From Eopsaltria australis (Eukaryota > Chordata > Aves > Passeriformes > Petroicidae), in contig JAVTVJ010001669.1 in assembly GCA_034509425.1 (NCBI GenBank), forward strand, positions 1 through 64,000: a DNA stretch of 64,000 bases, written 5' to 3'. Below are positions 4,474 through 60,950 of the stretch, one piece after another. Under the pieces are notes generated by a model that saw only the letters and a program-made list of their open reading frames with translations, was not told the DNA's origin and searched no databases. Within the stretch, counting starts at the first letter, position 1. Each line of letters opens with the position of its first letter. A program made the position numbers and the translations under genes.

Positions 4474-4889
4474 GGAGGAGGAGGAGGAGGAGGAGGGAAA
4501 GGAGAAAGAAGGAGGAGGAGGAAGAGAAGAGGGAGGAGGAGGAGGAGGAGGAAAAGGAGGAGCAGGAGGAGGAGGAGGAGGAGCAGGAGGAGGAGCAGGA
4601 GGAGGAGCAGGAGCAGGAGGAGGAAAAGGAGAAGAAGGAGGAGGAGGAGGAAGAGGAGCAACAGGAGGAGAAGAAGGAGGAAGAAGAAAAGGAGCAGGAG
4701 AAGGAAGAAGAGGAGCAGGAGGAAGAGAAGAAGGAGGAGGAAAAGGAGAGGAAGAAGGAGGAGGAAGGAGGAGGAAAAGGAGCAGGAGGAGGAAAAGGAG
4801 CAGGAGGAGGAAGAAGAGAAGAAGGAGGAGGAGGAAGAGGAGCAGCAGGAGGAGAAGGAGGAAGAAGAAAAGGAGCAGGAGGAGAAGGG
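4474..4889 (+). repeat. GGA/GAA polypurine tract, about 415 bp
   Basis: Almost pure purine on the + strand (GGAGGA, GAAGAA, with occasional GCA). Such tracts can form triplex DNA. Long Arg/Glu-, Gly- or Leu/Ser-rich open frames on both strands are by-products. Confidence 0.95.
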
Positions 4890-19027: not shown

Positions 19028-19053
19028 ATGGAAGAACTTGATGTGAATGTGAG
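19028..19053 (+). CDS. HTR4: HTR4 coding exon 1: start codon and extracellular N-terminus
   Basis: This short exon encodes M-E-E-L-D-V-N-V plus two bases of Ser9. It aligns residue for residue with the human start M-D-K-L-D-A-N-V-S and keeps the N-V-S glycosylation sequon at Asn7. The start context is good (G at -3, G at +4). The exon ends AG at 19052-19053 with donor GTAGGA at 19054. Joining to the exon at 32248 completes Ser9 and gives S-S-S-E-G-F-G, the same length as in human. The preceding exon part (18972-19027) is 5' UTR. The match is short, but the splice phase, spacing and identity together make chance unlikely. Confidence 0.88.
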
Positions 19054-29167: not shown

Positions 29168-29635
29168 CTTGTTTGGGGTGTTCCCTGTGATCCCTGGGGA
29201 TGTTCCCTGTGATCCCTGGGGATGTTCCCTGTGATCCCTGGGGATGTTCCCTGTGATCCCTGGGGATGTTCCCTGCCATCCCTGGGGATGTTCCCTGTGA
29301 TCCCTGGGGATGTTCCCTTCGATCTCTGGGGATGTTCCCTTCAATCCCTGGGGATGTTCCGTGTGATCCCTGGGGATGTTCCCTGTGATCCCTGGGGATG
29401 TTCCCTGTGATCCCTGGGGATGTTCCCTGTGATCCCTGGGGATGTTCCCTGTGATCCCTGGGGATGTTCCCTGCCATCCCTGGGGATGTTCCCTGTGATC
29501 CCTGGGGATGTTCCCTTCGATCCCCGGGGATGTTCCCTTCGATGCCTGGGGATGTTCCCTTCGATCCCTGGGGATGTTCCCTGTGATCCCTGGGGATGTT
29601 CCCTGCCATCCCTGGGATGTTCCCTGTTCCCTGTG
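29168..29635 (+). repeat. 22-bp minisatellite, about 21 units
   Basis: GGGGATGTTCCCTGTGATCC followed by CT, repeated with variants CTGCCATC, CTTCGATC and CTTCAATC. Confidence 0.95.
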
Positions 29636-32247: not shown

Positions 32248-32373
32248 TTCGAGTGAGGGCTTCGGCGTCGCGGCGAAGATCGTGCTGCTCTCCTTCATCT
32301 CCGCCGTCATCCTCATGGCCATCCTGGGCAACCTGCTGGTCATGGTGGCCGTGTGCCGGGACAGGCAGCTCAG
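32248..32373 (+). CDS. HTR4: HTR4 coding exon 2: TM1 and first intracellular loop
   Basis: Encodes residues 9-51. It begins S-S-E-G-F-G after acceptor CCCCCCAG and contains the hydrophobic TM1 with the G-N-L-L-V motif around Asn1.50 ([10 protein letters not shown]). It ends D-R-Q-L plus two bases of Arg51, donor GTGAGC at 32374. The sequence is nearly the human one; a tryptophan before D-R-Q-L in human is arginine here. The exon is GC-rich compared with its intron. An open frame running into it from 32192 has no ATG and is only intron read-through. Confidence 0.96.
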
Positions 32374-33607
32374 GTGAGCCCACCCAGGTGGCCACCACGG
32401 GGACAAAGCCCTCCTGACGAGCTGAGGGCAGGAGCTGCCACCAGGGAGGTGCCCCCACCTGACCCACGCCAGCCGTGGCTCAGCCCATCCTCATCCTTTG
32501 TAGCATTCTCAGGGTAGAAAAGCAGATAAATGAGTGCAAAACAGAGCTCAAATCAGTGCAAAACAGAGCTCAAACCAGTGACAAACACAGCTCAAACCAG
32601 TGCGAAACACAGCTCAAACCAGTGACAAACACAGCTCAAACCAGTGACAAACACAGCTCAAACCAGTGCGAAACACAGCTCAAACCAGTGACAAACACAG
32701 CTCAAACCAGTGACAAACACAGCTCAAACCAGTGACAAACGCAGCTCAAACCAGTGACAAACACAGCTCAAACCAGTGCAAAACACAGCTCAAACCAGTG
32801 ACAAACGCAGCTCAAACCAGTGACAAACACAGCTCAAACCAGTGACAAACACAGCTCAAACCAGTGACAAACACAGCTCAAACCAGTGCAAAACAGCTCA
32901 AATCAGTGAAAAACACGGTTCAGCATCAATTCCCTGGACAAACAGGCTGGCCTCTGCCCCTTTTCCATCTCAGAATTCCCAATGAGTTCATCAGCACCAC
33001 ACAGACCAAGGTCTGGTTGTGACTGTGCAGCACCAGCACAACTTAGCAAATGCTGCCCGTGGTTTGAGGGGGTCACAGGCACAATTCCTGTCTCGAGGCT
33101 GCTGCTAACCCTGGGGATTGTCAGCCCAGCCTTAGGAGCACAGAGAGAGAGATTTAACAGCCTCCATTCGTGTGCTGCGTGGGATTTTTAATGGATTTAA
33201 TTCTATTTTATTGTTGTGATTTAAAAAGTACTCTTCAAGATAAAATTACAGCTTCCGTCTAGATTCTTCTCAGGGCTTTCTGGAAGGATTTTCTCCATTT
33301 AGAAGTTAAAATAAAATCCCCCTCCTCCACCCCAGAGTCTCCAGTGCAAGGTGTGAGGCTGAGCCACATGCAGAGGCCTGTGAGCATCATTTGCCTCCTC
33401 TGGGTGAGCAGAAAGATGTGCTGATGCCAGGAAAACAGGAAAAAACCAGAAAAAAACCAGAAGCAAGCTGGGGTGAGCACAGAAAGTGAGGAGTGTGTTA
33501 GAGAGGGGCTTTTAGTGAGCAAATTAAACCCAAATTCAAGCCGGAATCAGTCCTTGTGTGGAGGCTGCTGCACTGAACCCACCTGAATTTTGTGATCTGC
33601 CTTGCAG
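32374..33607 (+). other. HTR4: HTR4 intron 2 (about 1.2 kb)
   Basis: Donor GTGAGC, acceptor CTTGCAG. Its first third is mostly a 22-bp minisatellite; the remainder is unremarkable. Confidence 0.95.
32535..32925 (+). repeat. HTR4: 22-bp minisatellite in HTR4 intron 2, about 17 units
   Basis: GCTCAAACCAGTGACAAACACA repeated, with variants GTGCGAAACACA, GTGCAAAACA and GACAAACGCA. It begins about 160 bp after a coding exon. Confidence 0.95.
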
Positions 33608-33808
33608 GAAAATCAAGACCAACTATTTCATTGTGTCCCTGGCCTTTGCTGACCTGCTGGTGTCGGTGCTGGTGATGCCCTTTGGGGCCATCGAGCTGGT
33701 TCAGGACAACTGGATCTACGGAGAGATGTTCTGCCTGGTGAGGACATCCCTGGACGTGCTGCTCACCACAGCATCCATCCTGCACCTCTGCTGCATCTCC
33801 CTGGACAG
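33608..33808 (+). CDS. HTR4: HTR4 coding exon 3: TM2, first extracellular loop, TM3
   Basis: Encodes residues 51-118. Acceptor CTTGCAG, donor GTAGGA at 33809. TM2 contains S-L-A-F-A-D-L-L with Asp66 (position 2.50). The first extracellular loop carries the conserved W (N-W-I-Y-G). TM3 carries Cys93 for the disulphide to the second extracellular loop, and Asp100 in T-S-L-D-V, the residue that pairs with the amine of serotonin in this family. The exon ends in L-D-R, the first part of the D-R-Y motif, with Arg118 split across the junction. Near-identity to human indicates strong constraint and an active gene. Confidence 0.97.
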
Positions 33809-43537: not shown

Positions 43538-43691
43538 GTACTATGCCATCTGCTGCCAGCCCCTGGTGTACAGGAACAAGATGACCCCGCTGCGCATCGC
43601 GCTGATGCTGGGAGGCTGCTGGGTCATCCCAACCTTCATTTCCTTCCTCCCTATCATGCAAGGCTGGAACAGCATTGGCATCATCGATCTG
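43538..43691 (+). CDS. HTR4: HTR4 coding exon 4: D-R-Y motif end, ICL2, TM4
   Basis: Encodes residues 118-169. Acceptor CCCTGCAG, donor GTGAGT at 43692. It completes D-R-Y and continues [10 protein letters not shown] (ICL2), then TM4 with the conserved tryptophan in G-G-C-W-V-I-P, ending I-I-D-L. Human has an optional extra exon (isoform h) after this point; I looked between 43692 and 44745 and saw no convincing equivalent. The exon follows an intron of about 9.7 kb that contains several LTR and CR1 insertions. Confidence 0.97.
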
Positions 43692-44094: not shown

Positions 44095-44710
44095 GCAGCC
44101 TTAGATGGGATGTTCGGAAAAAATCCTTCCCTGAGAGGGTGGGGAGGCCCTGGCACAGGTGCCCAGGGAGGCTGTGGATGTGTCCAAGTGTCCAAGGGTG
44201 GTTGGACAGGGCTTGGAGCAACCTGGTCTAGGGGAAGGTGTCCCTGCCCATGACAGGGGAGGACATGAGACATCTTCAAGGTCCCTCCCAACCCAACTCA
44301 ACCCAACCCAACTCAACCCAACTCAACCCAACCCAACCCAACTCAACCCAACTCAACCCAACTCAACCCAACCCAACCCAACCCAACTCAACCCAACTCA
44401 ACCCAACCCAACCAACCCAACTCAATGCAACCCAACTCAACCCAACCCAACTCAACCCAACCCAACTCAACCCAACCCAACCCAACTCAACCCAACCAAC
44501 AACTCAACCCAACTCAACAACCAACTCAACCCAACCAACTCAACCCAACCCAACTCAACCCAACCCAACTCAACCCAACCCAACTCAACCCAACTCAATG
44601 CAAGCCAACTCAACCCAACCCAACTCAACCCAACCCAACTCAACCCAACCCAACTCAACCCAACCCAACCCAACTCAAACCAACCCAACCCATTCTCTGA
44701 TTCCCATTTC
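44095..44710 (+). mobile_element. CR1 LINE 3' end with pentanucleotide tail expansion
   Basis: The CR1 body (GGCCCTGGCACAGGTGCCCAG, GGTGTCCCTGCCCATGACAG, AAGGTCCCTCCCAACCC) is followed by about 410 bp of CAACC and CAACT repeats, then the normal CR1 end CCCATTCTCTGATTCCC. The array is thus an expansion inside the element's own CCAACCCA segment. Confidence 0.93.
44285..44693 (+). repeat. HTR4: CAACC/CAACT pentanucleotide array
   Basis: About 80 pentamers alternating irregularly between CCAAC and TCAAC, with a few slips (CCAACAACTC, CAATGCAA). Asn/Thr/Gln/Pro-rich frames across it are by-products. Confidence 0.97.
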
Positions 44711-44745: not shown

Positions 44746-45554
44746 ATCCAGCAAAGGCAGTTCAACAAGGCCTCCAACTCCACCTACTGCATCTTCATGG
44801 TGAACAAACCTTACGCCATCACCTGCTCTGTGGTGGCCTTCTACATCCCCTTCCTGCTGATGGTGCTGGCCTACCACCGCATCTACGTGACGGCGCGGGC
44901 GCATGCACGACAGATCCGGCTGCTGCAGCGCGCAGGGAACCCGCAGGAGCCACGGCAGCACCTCCAGGAGCCCCGGCAGCACCTCCAGGAGCCACGGCAG
45001 CACCTCCAGGAGCCACGGCAGCACCTCCAGGAGCCCCGGCAGCAGCACCCCCAGGAGCCACAGCAGCATCTCCAGGAGCCACGGCAGCACCTCCAGGAGC
45101 CACAGCAGCATCTCCAGCAGCACCTCCAGGAGCCACGGCAGCACTTCCAGCAGCACCCCCAGGAGCCACAGCAACACCTCCAGGAGCCACGGCAGCAGCA
45201 CCCCCCCGACCAGCACAGCAGCCACCGCATGAAAACCGAGACCAAAGCTGCCAAGACCCTGTGCATCATCATGGGCTGCTTCTGCCTCTGCTGGGCCCCC
45301 TTCTTTGTCACCAACATCGTGGATCCCTTCATAAACTACACGGTGCCCGGCAAGCTGTGGACGGCCTTCCTGTGGCTGGGCTACATCAACTCGGGCCTGA
45401 ACCCTTTCCTCTACGCCTTCCTAAACAAGGCTTTCAGACGTGCCTTCCTCATCATCCTGTGCTGCGGCGACGAGCGCTACCGCCGGCCTTCCATCCTGGG
45501 CCAGACCGTGCCCTGCTCCACCACCACCATCAACGGCTCCACGCACGTGCTGAG
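44746..45554 (+). CDS. HTR4: HTR4 coding exon 5: ECL2, TM5, expanded ICL3, TM6, TM7, helix 8
   Basis: Encodes residues 170-438 plus two bases of 439. Acceptor CCCCAG, donor GTGAGT at 45555. In order it holds ECL2 with N180-S-T and Cys184; TM5 ([12 protein letters not shown]); the start of ICL3 ending L-Q-R-A-G; an 87-codon tandem repeat (residues 236-322, separate entry); [10 protein letters not shown]6 with the C-W-A-P switch; TM7 with N-P-F-L-Y; and a C-terminal Cys-Cys likely palmitoylated. It ends S-T-H-V-L, the point where human isoforms diverge. Outside the repeat it is close to the human sequence; the repeat makes the loop about 80 residues longer than in human. If the donor is not used, the next codons are AGG TGA, ending the protein at V-L-R. 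Confidence 0.97.
44944..45204 (+). repeat. HTR4: Coding minisatellite in HTR4 ICL3: 87 codons of a Q-E-P-R-Q-H-L repeat
   Basis: Eleven units each begin Q-E-P. The basic 21-bp unit codes Q-E-P-R-Q-H-L. Units 1-4 and 7 are this form; units 6 and 10 have Q for R; units 5 and 11 have an extra Q and end H-P (8 codons); units 8 and 9 carry an added Q-Q-H-L or Q-Q-H-P (11 codons). There are 31 Gln, 13 His, 11 Glu and 8 Arg, with Pro in every unit. All unit-length changes are whole codons. Many differences are synonymous (CCA/CCC, CAC/CAT, CAG/CAA). The block is flanked by conserved receptor sequence on both sides, so it is real coding sequence if the exon is used. Confidence 0.95.
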
Positions 45555-46051: not shown

Positions 46052-47689
46052 GCAGGGCTTGTCACAGCCTTGATCAGACCCCTCAGGCTTTGCAAGCCAT
46101 GAAGGACATTGCAAAATATGTATCTTCTGCTGATTAAAATCTGTTTGGTGGCCGTGGTGGCCTGTCCCCGAGCCCTGGGTGTGTGATGGATGTGTGGCAC
46201 CGTGTCAGGCTTCTCTCAGGGACACCCAGACACTCCTGAGCTGTGGTAGGAGGTGGGAGAGAGCAGCCCTTGTCCAATTCTGGTTTTTATAAATCCTGTT
46301 CTGCTCTGTCCAGGTTTTCTCCTGCCTTTCCAATCTCTCCATTTCCCAGTGCTGCATCCCCTCCTCTCTCCACGTGCTGGGGGATGCAGCTCTGCACTCC
46401 AGCCCTTCACAGAGCAATCATTGTCTGCTTTCCTCAGCTGTGGGACTGATACAAAGTGTGACTTCTGTCCCTGGTGCAGGTTGTGCACTGATGGTGGTGA
46501 CGGAGGGCTGGCAATCAAAGCAAACCCAACCAATTGTAATTTGTGGGTAGTTAATCTCAGGTGAGGAATTTATATTTCTTCAGTGCTTTGCTCTTAAATG
46601 CCAAAAAGGTTGAATCCAGCACGGATGGAAGAGGAATTTTAGTTAGGCAGCTTCTCCCAAGACATAAATAGAGCTTTTAGCTGTCTTTGAAATACAAGCC
46701 CAGCAGTGAAACACTGAAACCTTCCTGTCAGGGCTGGCTCCTCCCAGCCCCACCGAGGAGCTCCACAGGGGATCAGACACTTTTCCAACCTCAAAGTTGC
46801 TTCTTCCTGACCAAAAGCAAATGGGGAAGTTGGGCCAGTGGGGTTTTACAGCTGCTTTTTGTCGCCTGGCAGGGACAGCAGTGGCAAGAGGGACAGGCCT
46901 TGTGCTGAATATGTCAGAAAATAATGAGCTGTAAATAGATGGGGGTTTCTGGGTGTTCAGGGCTCTGTGCAACACCAGAAAAAAGCCAAAACCATCTGAA
47001 AAATGCTGTGTTTCCCTCAAAAGGATTGTTTGCATTTCTTCTGCCACGAGTAGATATTTATTGAACACAAACCAAGAAACTCCTGCCTCCATCAGTCACT
47101 GAGCTCTTGTGCAGCACAAGTGGATGGGGAGCCAGGTCAGCATTGCTGGAATTCCTGCATGAAACAAGTTGTGAAATTTTGCCACAGCAAAGGAGACTTT
47201 GGGTGAAATATATCTGAGCAATGATCAGAGCAGACAAACTCTGGGACATTTGGGTCAAGGAGGTCACTGCTGTGTCCCCATTTCCTCTCAGAAGTGCTCA
47301 GAGCACTGCCCTGGTCTCTTCAGGGAGAGCTTTGGTGAGAGCTTTATTTACCACTCTGAGAGGTGCCAGCACTGAGAGGTCTCCTCCAAATGTCAACTGG
47401 ATTTCTCCAAAGGAAAACACATCCTGATTTTTCTCTTGAAAGAGCCAAGAGAAACAAAGTGGGGAAAAATCAGAAACGAGCACCTTGGGGGCTGGAACTG
47501 CAGCGAGCCCCAGAGCCCCCTGTGCCTTTGGAACAGGAGTGAAGCAACTCAGGGCTCCAGTTTTTAGAGGTTTAACAACTCCACAGATCCTTTGGAATAA
47601 AAATAATTCCCTGCTGGTTGTAGGGAAGAGGTCAGAGCTGCTGGGGAGCAAAAGGATGAGTGATCACAGAATCATGGAACCATGGGATG

Positions 47690-48355
47690 GTTTGTGGTGG
47701 TTCTTTGAATGGTTTGTGATGTGTTTTTGAATGGTTTGTGAAGTTTTTGGAATGGTTTGTGATGGTTTTTGAATGGTTTGTGATTTCTTTGAATGGTTTG
47801 TGATGTTCTTTGAAAGGTTTGTGGTGGTTTCTGAATGGTTTGTGGTGGTTTTGGAATGGTTTGTGATGATTTTTTGAACGGTCTGTGATAATTTTTGATT
47901 GATTTGTGATGGTTTTTGAATGGTTTATGATGTTCTTTGAAAGGTTTATGGTGTTTTTTGGAATGGTTTGTGCTGGTTTTTCGAACAGTTTGTGATGGTT
48001 TTTGAATGGTTTGCAGTGGTTTCTTGAGTGGTTTGTGGTTGTTTTTTGAATGGTTTGTGATGTTCTTTGAAAGGTTTTTGATGAATTTTGAATGGTTTGT
48101 GGTGGTTTTTGAACAGTTTGTGTTGGTTTTTGGAATGGTTTGTGATGTTTTTTGAACAGTTTGTGATGGTTTTTGCATGGTTTGTAATGTTTTTGCATGC
48201 TTTGTGATGGTTTTTGAACAGTTTGTGACAGTTTTTGCATGGTTTGTGATGGTTTTTGAACGGTTTGTGATGTTTTTGCATGGTTTGTGTTGGTTTTTGA
48301 ACGGTTTGTGATGTTTTTGCATGGTTTGTGATGGTTTTTACATGGTTTGTGGTGT
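47690..48355 (+). repeat. HTR4: Minisatellite, about 21-bp unit, some 30 copies
   Basis: TGGTTTTTGAATGGTTTGTGA repeated with variants (GAACGGTTTG, GCATGGTTTG, GAAAGGTTTG). Confidence 0.95.
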
Positions 48356-54122: not shown

Positions 54123-54183
54123 TGGCTGTTCCTCTGTCTCCAAGCTCCTCCTGCTCTTCTGCAGCAGACCAGCTCCTGTCTAA
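54123..54183 (+). CDS. HTR4: HTR4 alternative terminal exon, equivalent to the human g-type C-terminus
   Basis: After the acceptor AG at 54121-54122, the first base completes Ser439. The frame reads S-G-C-S-S-V-S-K-L-L-L-L-F-C-S-R-P-A-P-V then TAA (54181-54183). This closely matches the known human 5-HT4(g) tail, which also starts S-G-C-S and ends L-L-L-F-C-N-R-P-V-P-V. The acceptor is preceded by a pyrimidine-rich run ending in CACTAAAAG. The 3' UTR continues past 54183; I could not place its poly(A) site. An internal AG at 54143-54144 would shift the frame, so a human e-like form is not expected from that site. Confidence is high because phase, length and sequence all agree. Confidence 0.9.
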
Positions 54184-60424: not shown

Positions 60425-60950
60425 CCCTGGGTTTGACACCTAAAAAATCTGAGTTTGACACCTAAAAAAGTCTGGGTTTGGCACCTGGAAAAATCTGGGT
60501 TTGGCACGTAAAAAAATCTAGGTTTGACACCTGAAAAATCTGGGTTTGATACCTGGAAAAATATGGGTTTGACATGTGAAAAAATCTGGGTTTGACACCA
60601 AAAAAAATCTGGGTTTGACACAAAAAAAATCTGGGTTTGGCACCTGGAAAAATCTGGGTTTGATGCATAAAAAAGCTGAATTTGACACCTAAACAAATCT
60701 GGGTTTGACACTTGAAAAATCTGGGTTTGGCATCCAAAAAAGTCTAGGTCTGACACCTTAAAAAATCTGGGTTTGGCACCTGAAAATATCTGGGTTTGGC
60801 ACCTAAAAAATCTGGGTTTGACACCTGAAAAAATCTAGGTTTGACACCTACAAAATTTGGGTTTGGCACCTGGAAAAATCTAGATTTGATACCTAAAAAA
60901 ATCTGGGTTTGACACCTAAAAAATCTGGGTTTGACACCTAAAAAAAGCTC
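60425..60950 (+). repeat. 22-bp minisatellite, about 24 units
   Basis: AAAAATCTGGGTTTGACACCTA repeated with variants (GGCACCTGG, GACACAAAA, AGGTTTGACA). Phe/Gln/Cys-rich frames on the minus strand are by-products. Confidence 0.95.

Follow-up and report, generated by a model that had tools for sequence, protein, structure and literature searches.

In-frame minisatellite arrays lengthen the third intracellular loop of the serotonin 5-HT4 receptor in songbirds

Results

In songbirds, a near-invariant neurotransmitter receptor has had one loop stretched from 10 to between 31 and 155 residues. The loop is the third intracellular loop (ICL3) of the serotonin 5-HT4 receptor, and it is filled by a tandem array that is real, lies in frame in an intact gene, is hypervariable in length beside an almost unchanged receptor core, and occurs in every unbroken songbird record that we compared. 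Our window, the 64,000-nucleotide stretch of Eopsaltria australis DNA that was analysed, holds one such array at positions 44944-45204.

We assigned the array-bearing gene to HTR4, the serotonin 5-HT4 receptor gene, on its best match over other aminergic receptors. A phmmer search with the translation of the exon at 44746-45554 (plus strand) matched human 5-HT4 (PDB 7xt8) with an E-value of 7.8e-104, the next receptor giving 1.1e-28, and Pfam 7tm_1 was found on the same exon (E 1.2e-26). The gene model comprises six exons, all on the plus strand. The first coding exon (19028-19053; MEELDVNV plus AG) was located by motif search, starts as in the Cyanistes and Anser records and has the donor GTAGGA. 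It is followed by exons encoding TM1 (32248-32373; 91-95% by tblastn against songbird HTR4; AG/GTGAGC), TM2-TM3 (33608-33808; 93-96% by the same comparison; AG/GTAGGA) and ICL2-TM4 (43538-43691; 91-93%; AG/GTGAGT), and then by the array-bearing exon, which runs from ECL2 through TM5, ICL3, TM6 and TM7 to helix 8 (AG/GTGAGT). The last is an alternative C-terminal tail exon at 54123-54183, in which the frame closes; its tail, SGCSSVSKLLLLFCSRPAPV followed by the stop, is common to Catharus, Ficedula and Passer isoforms in tblastn. Joined, the six exons make 1377 nt and encode 458 amino acids with a single terminal stop and GT-AG at every intron. The seven-transmembrane reading frame and the splice sites of HTR4 are intact, and the spliced open reading frame closes as the preliminary description of this DNA had claimed.

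The array itself covers 261 bp (87 codons), keeps the reading frame of the HTR4 exon and encodes exactly eleven Q-E-P units, the number first counted there. The consensus unit is CAG GAG CCA CGG CAG CAC CTC, or QEPRQHL. Because the 21-bp period has a Tandem Repeats Finder score of 293 (83-364 for other periods of the same array), the array is not attributable to chance. Successive QEP motifs are separated by 7, 7, 7, 7, 8, 7, 7, 11, 11 and 7 codons, after which comes the last unit. On the left the array is bounded by G-N-P (44935-44943, plus strand), which follows LQRA, and on the right by P-D-Q-H (45205-45216, plus strand), which forms the joint to TM6. Measured from LQRAG to DQH, the loop has 90 residues, and by alignment that of human 5-HT4 in PDB 7xt8 has 10, in agreement with the proposal that an in-frame coding minisatellite has added about 80 residues to ICL3; the span from TM5.56 to TM6.37 is 132 residues. 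Two further observations made at the outset are correct and carry little weight. No stop has arisen in the array, but all six reading frames through it are free of stops, so their absence is weak evidence. Likewise, the unit-length changes of 7, 8 or 11 codons keep the frame, but this also says little, since TM6-TM7 downstream demand it.

No second copy of the unit was found anywhere in the 64-kb window with up to 4 mismatches allowed. The window contains 37 tandem-repeat loci, amounting to 12.5% of its bases, and only the ICL3 array touches coding exons. One neighbour is an intronic array of about 81 CCCAA pentamers (44287-44692, plus strand) that ends 53 bp before the array exon; it is not part of the receptor, and might influence how that exon is spliced. 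Outside the coding exons of the locus there are other large minisatellites, with periods of 21-23 bp, at 47687-48355, 60427-60946, 29174-29627 and 32539-32916.

We compared the window with other HTR4 proteins using three protein searches, of which we took the best 120 of 546, 120 of 123 and 120 of 1518 matches, the query of the third being a crow record. These yielded 194 distinct cluster representatives, behind which the individual cluster members lie, and with the window a set of 195 sequences. Among the matches listed, all 20 songbird taxa whose loop is unbroken carry an array, with 31-155 loop residues. These taxa are 18 named genera, one unnamed record and the window; Lonchura is represented twice, giving 21 sequences. 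The loop of the window is identical to none of the others parsed. Every one of the 58 other loops parsed among the matches listed measures 8-10 residues from LQRAG to DQH, a pattern that missed fish-type flanks. The TM5.56-TM6.37 span could be measured in 159 of the 195 sequences, the 36 failures being models that are cut and sequences in which the anchor motifs are missing. Among the matches listed, it is 73-197 residues in 28 songbird records with an unbroken loop, as compared to 48-67 in 130 other records, 59 of which stand at 52; these 130 carry mostly the names of other vertebrates, and some are unnamed. The preliminary description had known of no 5-HT4 receptor with such a feature. Alignment of HTR4 across birds bears out the array as real but not as special to this genome, every unbroken songbird record among the matches listed having one.

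Cut models without the left flank also show array-like residues, among the matches listed, in 13 further genera: Vireo, Aegithalos, Sinosuthora, Loxia, Hypocryptadius, Erpornis, Brachypodius, Phainopepla, Drymodes, Malurus, Oenanthe, Sylvietta and Hirundo. Since the DQHS joint is missing from the model of Malurus cyaneus (P0075, span 47), this record looks cut and was set aside; Malurus elegans (P0046) shows array residues. The Corvus model P0093 retains EPRQHPP alone and the Lamprotornis model P0180 retains no array residue, both models skipping the region. Climacteris and Malurus branch early among songbirds, and the genera in the comparison other than these two, Vireo and Drymodes we take to be songbirds. 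NCBI taxonomy places those four in four passerine families. Some cluster, for example that of Anser with its 69 members, could conceal a short-looped songbird. No suboscine is among the best 120 of the 1518 matches of the crow-record search, and one could sit in a cluster; thus, the origin of the array can probably be dated only to at or before the songbirds sampled. The longest loop seen, at 155 residues, is that of an unnamed short contig (P0001), whose degenerate units mix QET, QEP and QHP. Modestly longer 5-HT4 loops, with spans of 63-66, are found in three fish records (P0136, P0155 and P0165) and in the mammal Perognathus (P0159), and their filler is Gly/Ser/Ala-rich or Gly/Ala/Arg-rich, a composition quite unlike that of the songbird array.

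The edges of the arrays resemble the short avian loop. That of Anser reads TPADGRQHPP, and the songbird array edges read NP[A/Q]EPRQHPP. Arrays start with N-P in 20 of 21 songbird sequences, the P being common to the short loops and the N not, and P-P precedes D-Q at the array end in 17 of 21, as in Anser; the arrays of Catharus, Ficedula, Passer and Sitta are without this right edge. The unit E-P-R-Q-H-P resembles the D-G-R-Q-H-P of short avian loops, which suggests that the array may have arisen by duplication of the receptor's own loop segment.

The excess of loop length over 10 residues is an exact multiple of 7 in 10 of 21 songbird loops, and clean steps of 31, 38, 52, 66 and 73 loop residues are seen in estrildids and a flowerpecker. 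Units from one sequence resemble each other more than units from different sequences do (0.69 versus 0.59; 140 units from 20 sequences, with the last unit dropped where more than one was present), and the difference of 0.103 compares with a largest value of 0.025 in 500 label shuffles. This likeness would, as expected, fit concerted turnover, with shared descent also contributing. Between two Lonchura striata records (P0008 and P0014), all 377 of 377 non-loop residues are identical and the loops have 73 and 66 residues, differing by one 7-residue unit plus several differences within units, which may reflect the assembly or the strain. Five zebra finch records, some perhaps isoforms of one assembly, all have 38 loop residues. 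The earlier expectation that such arrays often vary in copy number between individuals may hold for the Lonchura striata pair, and the zebra finch records are all alike; the two Lonchura striata records are suggestive, not proof, of a within-species VNTR.

The rest of the exon has hardly changed. With the loop left out, 19 comparisons with the window show 0-7 differences over 178 positions, and six of them show none; Chloebia could not enter this comparison. Within the loop, 1184 of the 1448 residues across the 21 songbird sequences are Q, P, E, H or R.

Several database models of songbird HTR4 excise the repeat. A rival explanation is that the array is removed by splicing to leave a normal protein. 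Of the 16 cut songbird models, 12 break directly after R-I-Y, at the GT at 44887 in the window. However, this GT matches 5 of 9 donor consensus positions, as compared to 6-8 for the gene's five donors, its use would remove the end of TM5, and there is no GT dinucleotide within the array. Eleven partial models running from IQQRQF to THVLR, with the LQRAG flank absent, are 178-194 amino acids long, close to the 190 expected without 80 extra residues, and we therefore read them as template-led prediction artefacts. Among the matches listed, 18 named genera have models that include the array. Removal by splicing is thus very improbable, and we infer that the array is retained in mRNA. An assembly artefact, to which repeats are generally prone, deserves almost no credence, since 20 taxa have arrays and these contain lineage-specific units. 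Sixteen public songbird HTR4 models lack part or all of the array and so give a wrong loop length, namely those breaking after RIY (P0028, P0031, P0032, P0033, P0035, P0036, P0037, P0038, P0046, P0051, P0125 and P0180) and those cut otherwise (P0039, P0075, P0077 and P0093). The models from Hirundo (P0125) and Lamprotornis (P0180) also carry a long Lys/Glu-rich low-complexity stretch N-terminal to the first HTR4 exon; a GGA-rich array at 4474-4888 of the window may or may not relate to it.

Discussion

The best supported reading of these results is that the array is a spacer under loose constraint, driven by slippage and probably translated and flexible. By the base of the sampled songbirds, a 7-codon piece of the receptor's own ICL3 would have become a tandem repeat, and units would since have been gained and lost by slippage or unequal exchange. 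The product would be a flexible, nearly uncharged spacer rich in Q, P, E, H and R, presumably disordered, between an intact TM5 and TM6. Two structure models of the Ficedula receptor, with mean pLDDT of 47.3 and 50.5 (46 and 97 aligned sequences), are helix-free in the loop, but since the membrane helices are also poorly modelled, little weight can be placed on them. The 5-HT4 receptor couples to Gs, and its core would still do so in songbirds. According to the ICL3 gating model, a longer floppy loop would shift how often the G-protein cavity is covered, and a loop enlarged by 21-145 residues is predicted to push 5-HT4 toward stronger gating and Gs selectivity. Unit number might then mildly tune selectivity or efficacy, while mostly drifting under loose constraint. 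We regard the explanation as a whole, an own-loop repeat expanded in songbirds and translated as a flexible spacer, as probable; the part in which unit number mildly tunes coupling through covering of the cavity we offer tentatively, as something that could be so.

A purely neutral account, in which any flexible in-frame filler would be acceptable at the apex of ICL3 and the array would be mutational drift at a repeat-prone locus with signalling unaffected, is a quite plausible competitor. It draws on loops of 31-155 residues beside a near-identical core, on the abundance of tandem repeats in the window (12.5%), and on the freedom of the unit, with wide variation at positions 6 and 7 and R at position 4 in just 70% of cases (Q in 11%, and W, P and H in 6% each). 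It also fits what the five core codons of the window array show: six differences, three of them synonymous and the other three nonsynonymous and all CGG to CAG, which is the kind of change that CpG decay gives; six are too few for a test of selection inside the array. On the other side, a return to 10 residues is seen in none of the 20 unbroken songbird taxa among the matches listed, P0075 being taken as a cut model. Moreover, across 191 units, each located by its E, Q at position 1 (88%) and P at position 3 (81%) stay frequent, and Ser, Thr and Tyr are rare (24 of 1375 loop residues in 20 songbird sequences), although homogenisation may explain all of this.

The array might instead resemble that of the dopamine receptor DRD4 in serving as a docking site, with repeated proline motifs recruiting SH3 or other scaffold proteins. 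Class I SH3 ligands follow the pattern RxxPxxP. Units ending in P yield RQHPQEP, which fits it, and 1-6 copies occur in 11 of the 21 songbird sequences, a count that stands without a composition control; binding of DRD4 to the SH3 domain of PSD-95 is described in a portion of PMC10454781. However, the other 10 of 21 sequences have none, including the window, zebra finch, both Lonchura records, Cinclus and Catharus. Since the pattern is found in 11 of 21 songbird loops and is absent from the window, we rejected SH3 docking as a shared property, and docking of this kind is improbable overall. The preliminary description proposed that the insertion could change coupling, trafficking or partner binding; such effects would be hypothetical, this docking motif being missing from the window and Ser, Thr and Tyr being few in the loops. 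Rather unlikely, too, is a bolder version in which the array would be a fast-changing length dial across songbirds, with unit number setting coupling and partners, varying between individuals and underlying heritable variation in serotonin traits, as an independent counterpart of the DRD4 VNTR.

The loops of songbirds offer a natural length series for asking how ICL3 length governs coupling, and for songbird behavioural genetics the array is a candidate VNTR marker in a serotonin receptor.

In the portions of the open-access literature on birds, DRD4 and ICL3 that were covered, we found no description of a songbird 5-HT4 repeat loop, and the covered part of a review of avian serotonin, which treats chick HTR4 expression and isoforms, is without this repeat (PMC10394247). 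Short repeat length variation in birds is itself familiar: polymorphisms in CLOCK, NPAS2, ADCYAP1 and CREB1 are linked to traits by their authors in the relevant part of PMC4567867, but these are other genes, and here a 21-bp minisatellite lies inside a receptor loop. Closer in kind is the proline repeat of chicken DRD4, also repeat variation in a bird aminergic receptor, which its authors, in the section concerned, place in the extracellular region and not in ICL3 (PMC4117491).

With regard to loop function, Sadler et al. (2023) report, in the portions of PMC10033409 covered, that ICL3 gates G-protein selectivity in the beta2-adrenergic and other receptors, with a long-loop regime set at 46 residues by their own count; the spans given here (52 to 73-197) use 5.56-6.37 and are not directly comparable to that figure. 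The likeness is a long ICL3 between TM5 and TM6, unstructured there and predicted to be so here. The difference is that gating was shown in other receptors, and 5-HT4 repeat loops are absent from those portions of the article. The closest parallel is human DRD4, whose exon 3 carries a coding VNTR with a 48-bp unit in ICL3, as described in part of PMC10454781. Both are coding, in-frame, proline-rich tandem repeats whose copy number varies, and both sit in ICL3 of an aminergic class A receptor. The songbird arrays differ in lying in 5-HT4, in not all having the SH3 pattern, in showing possible within-species variation in one record pair only, and in consisting of a 7-residue Q-E-P-R-Q-x-x unit, as opposed to the 16 residues of DRD4, that extends across songbirds.
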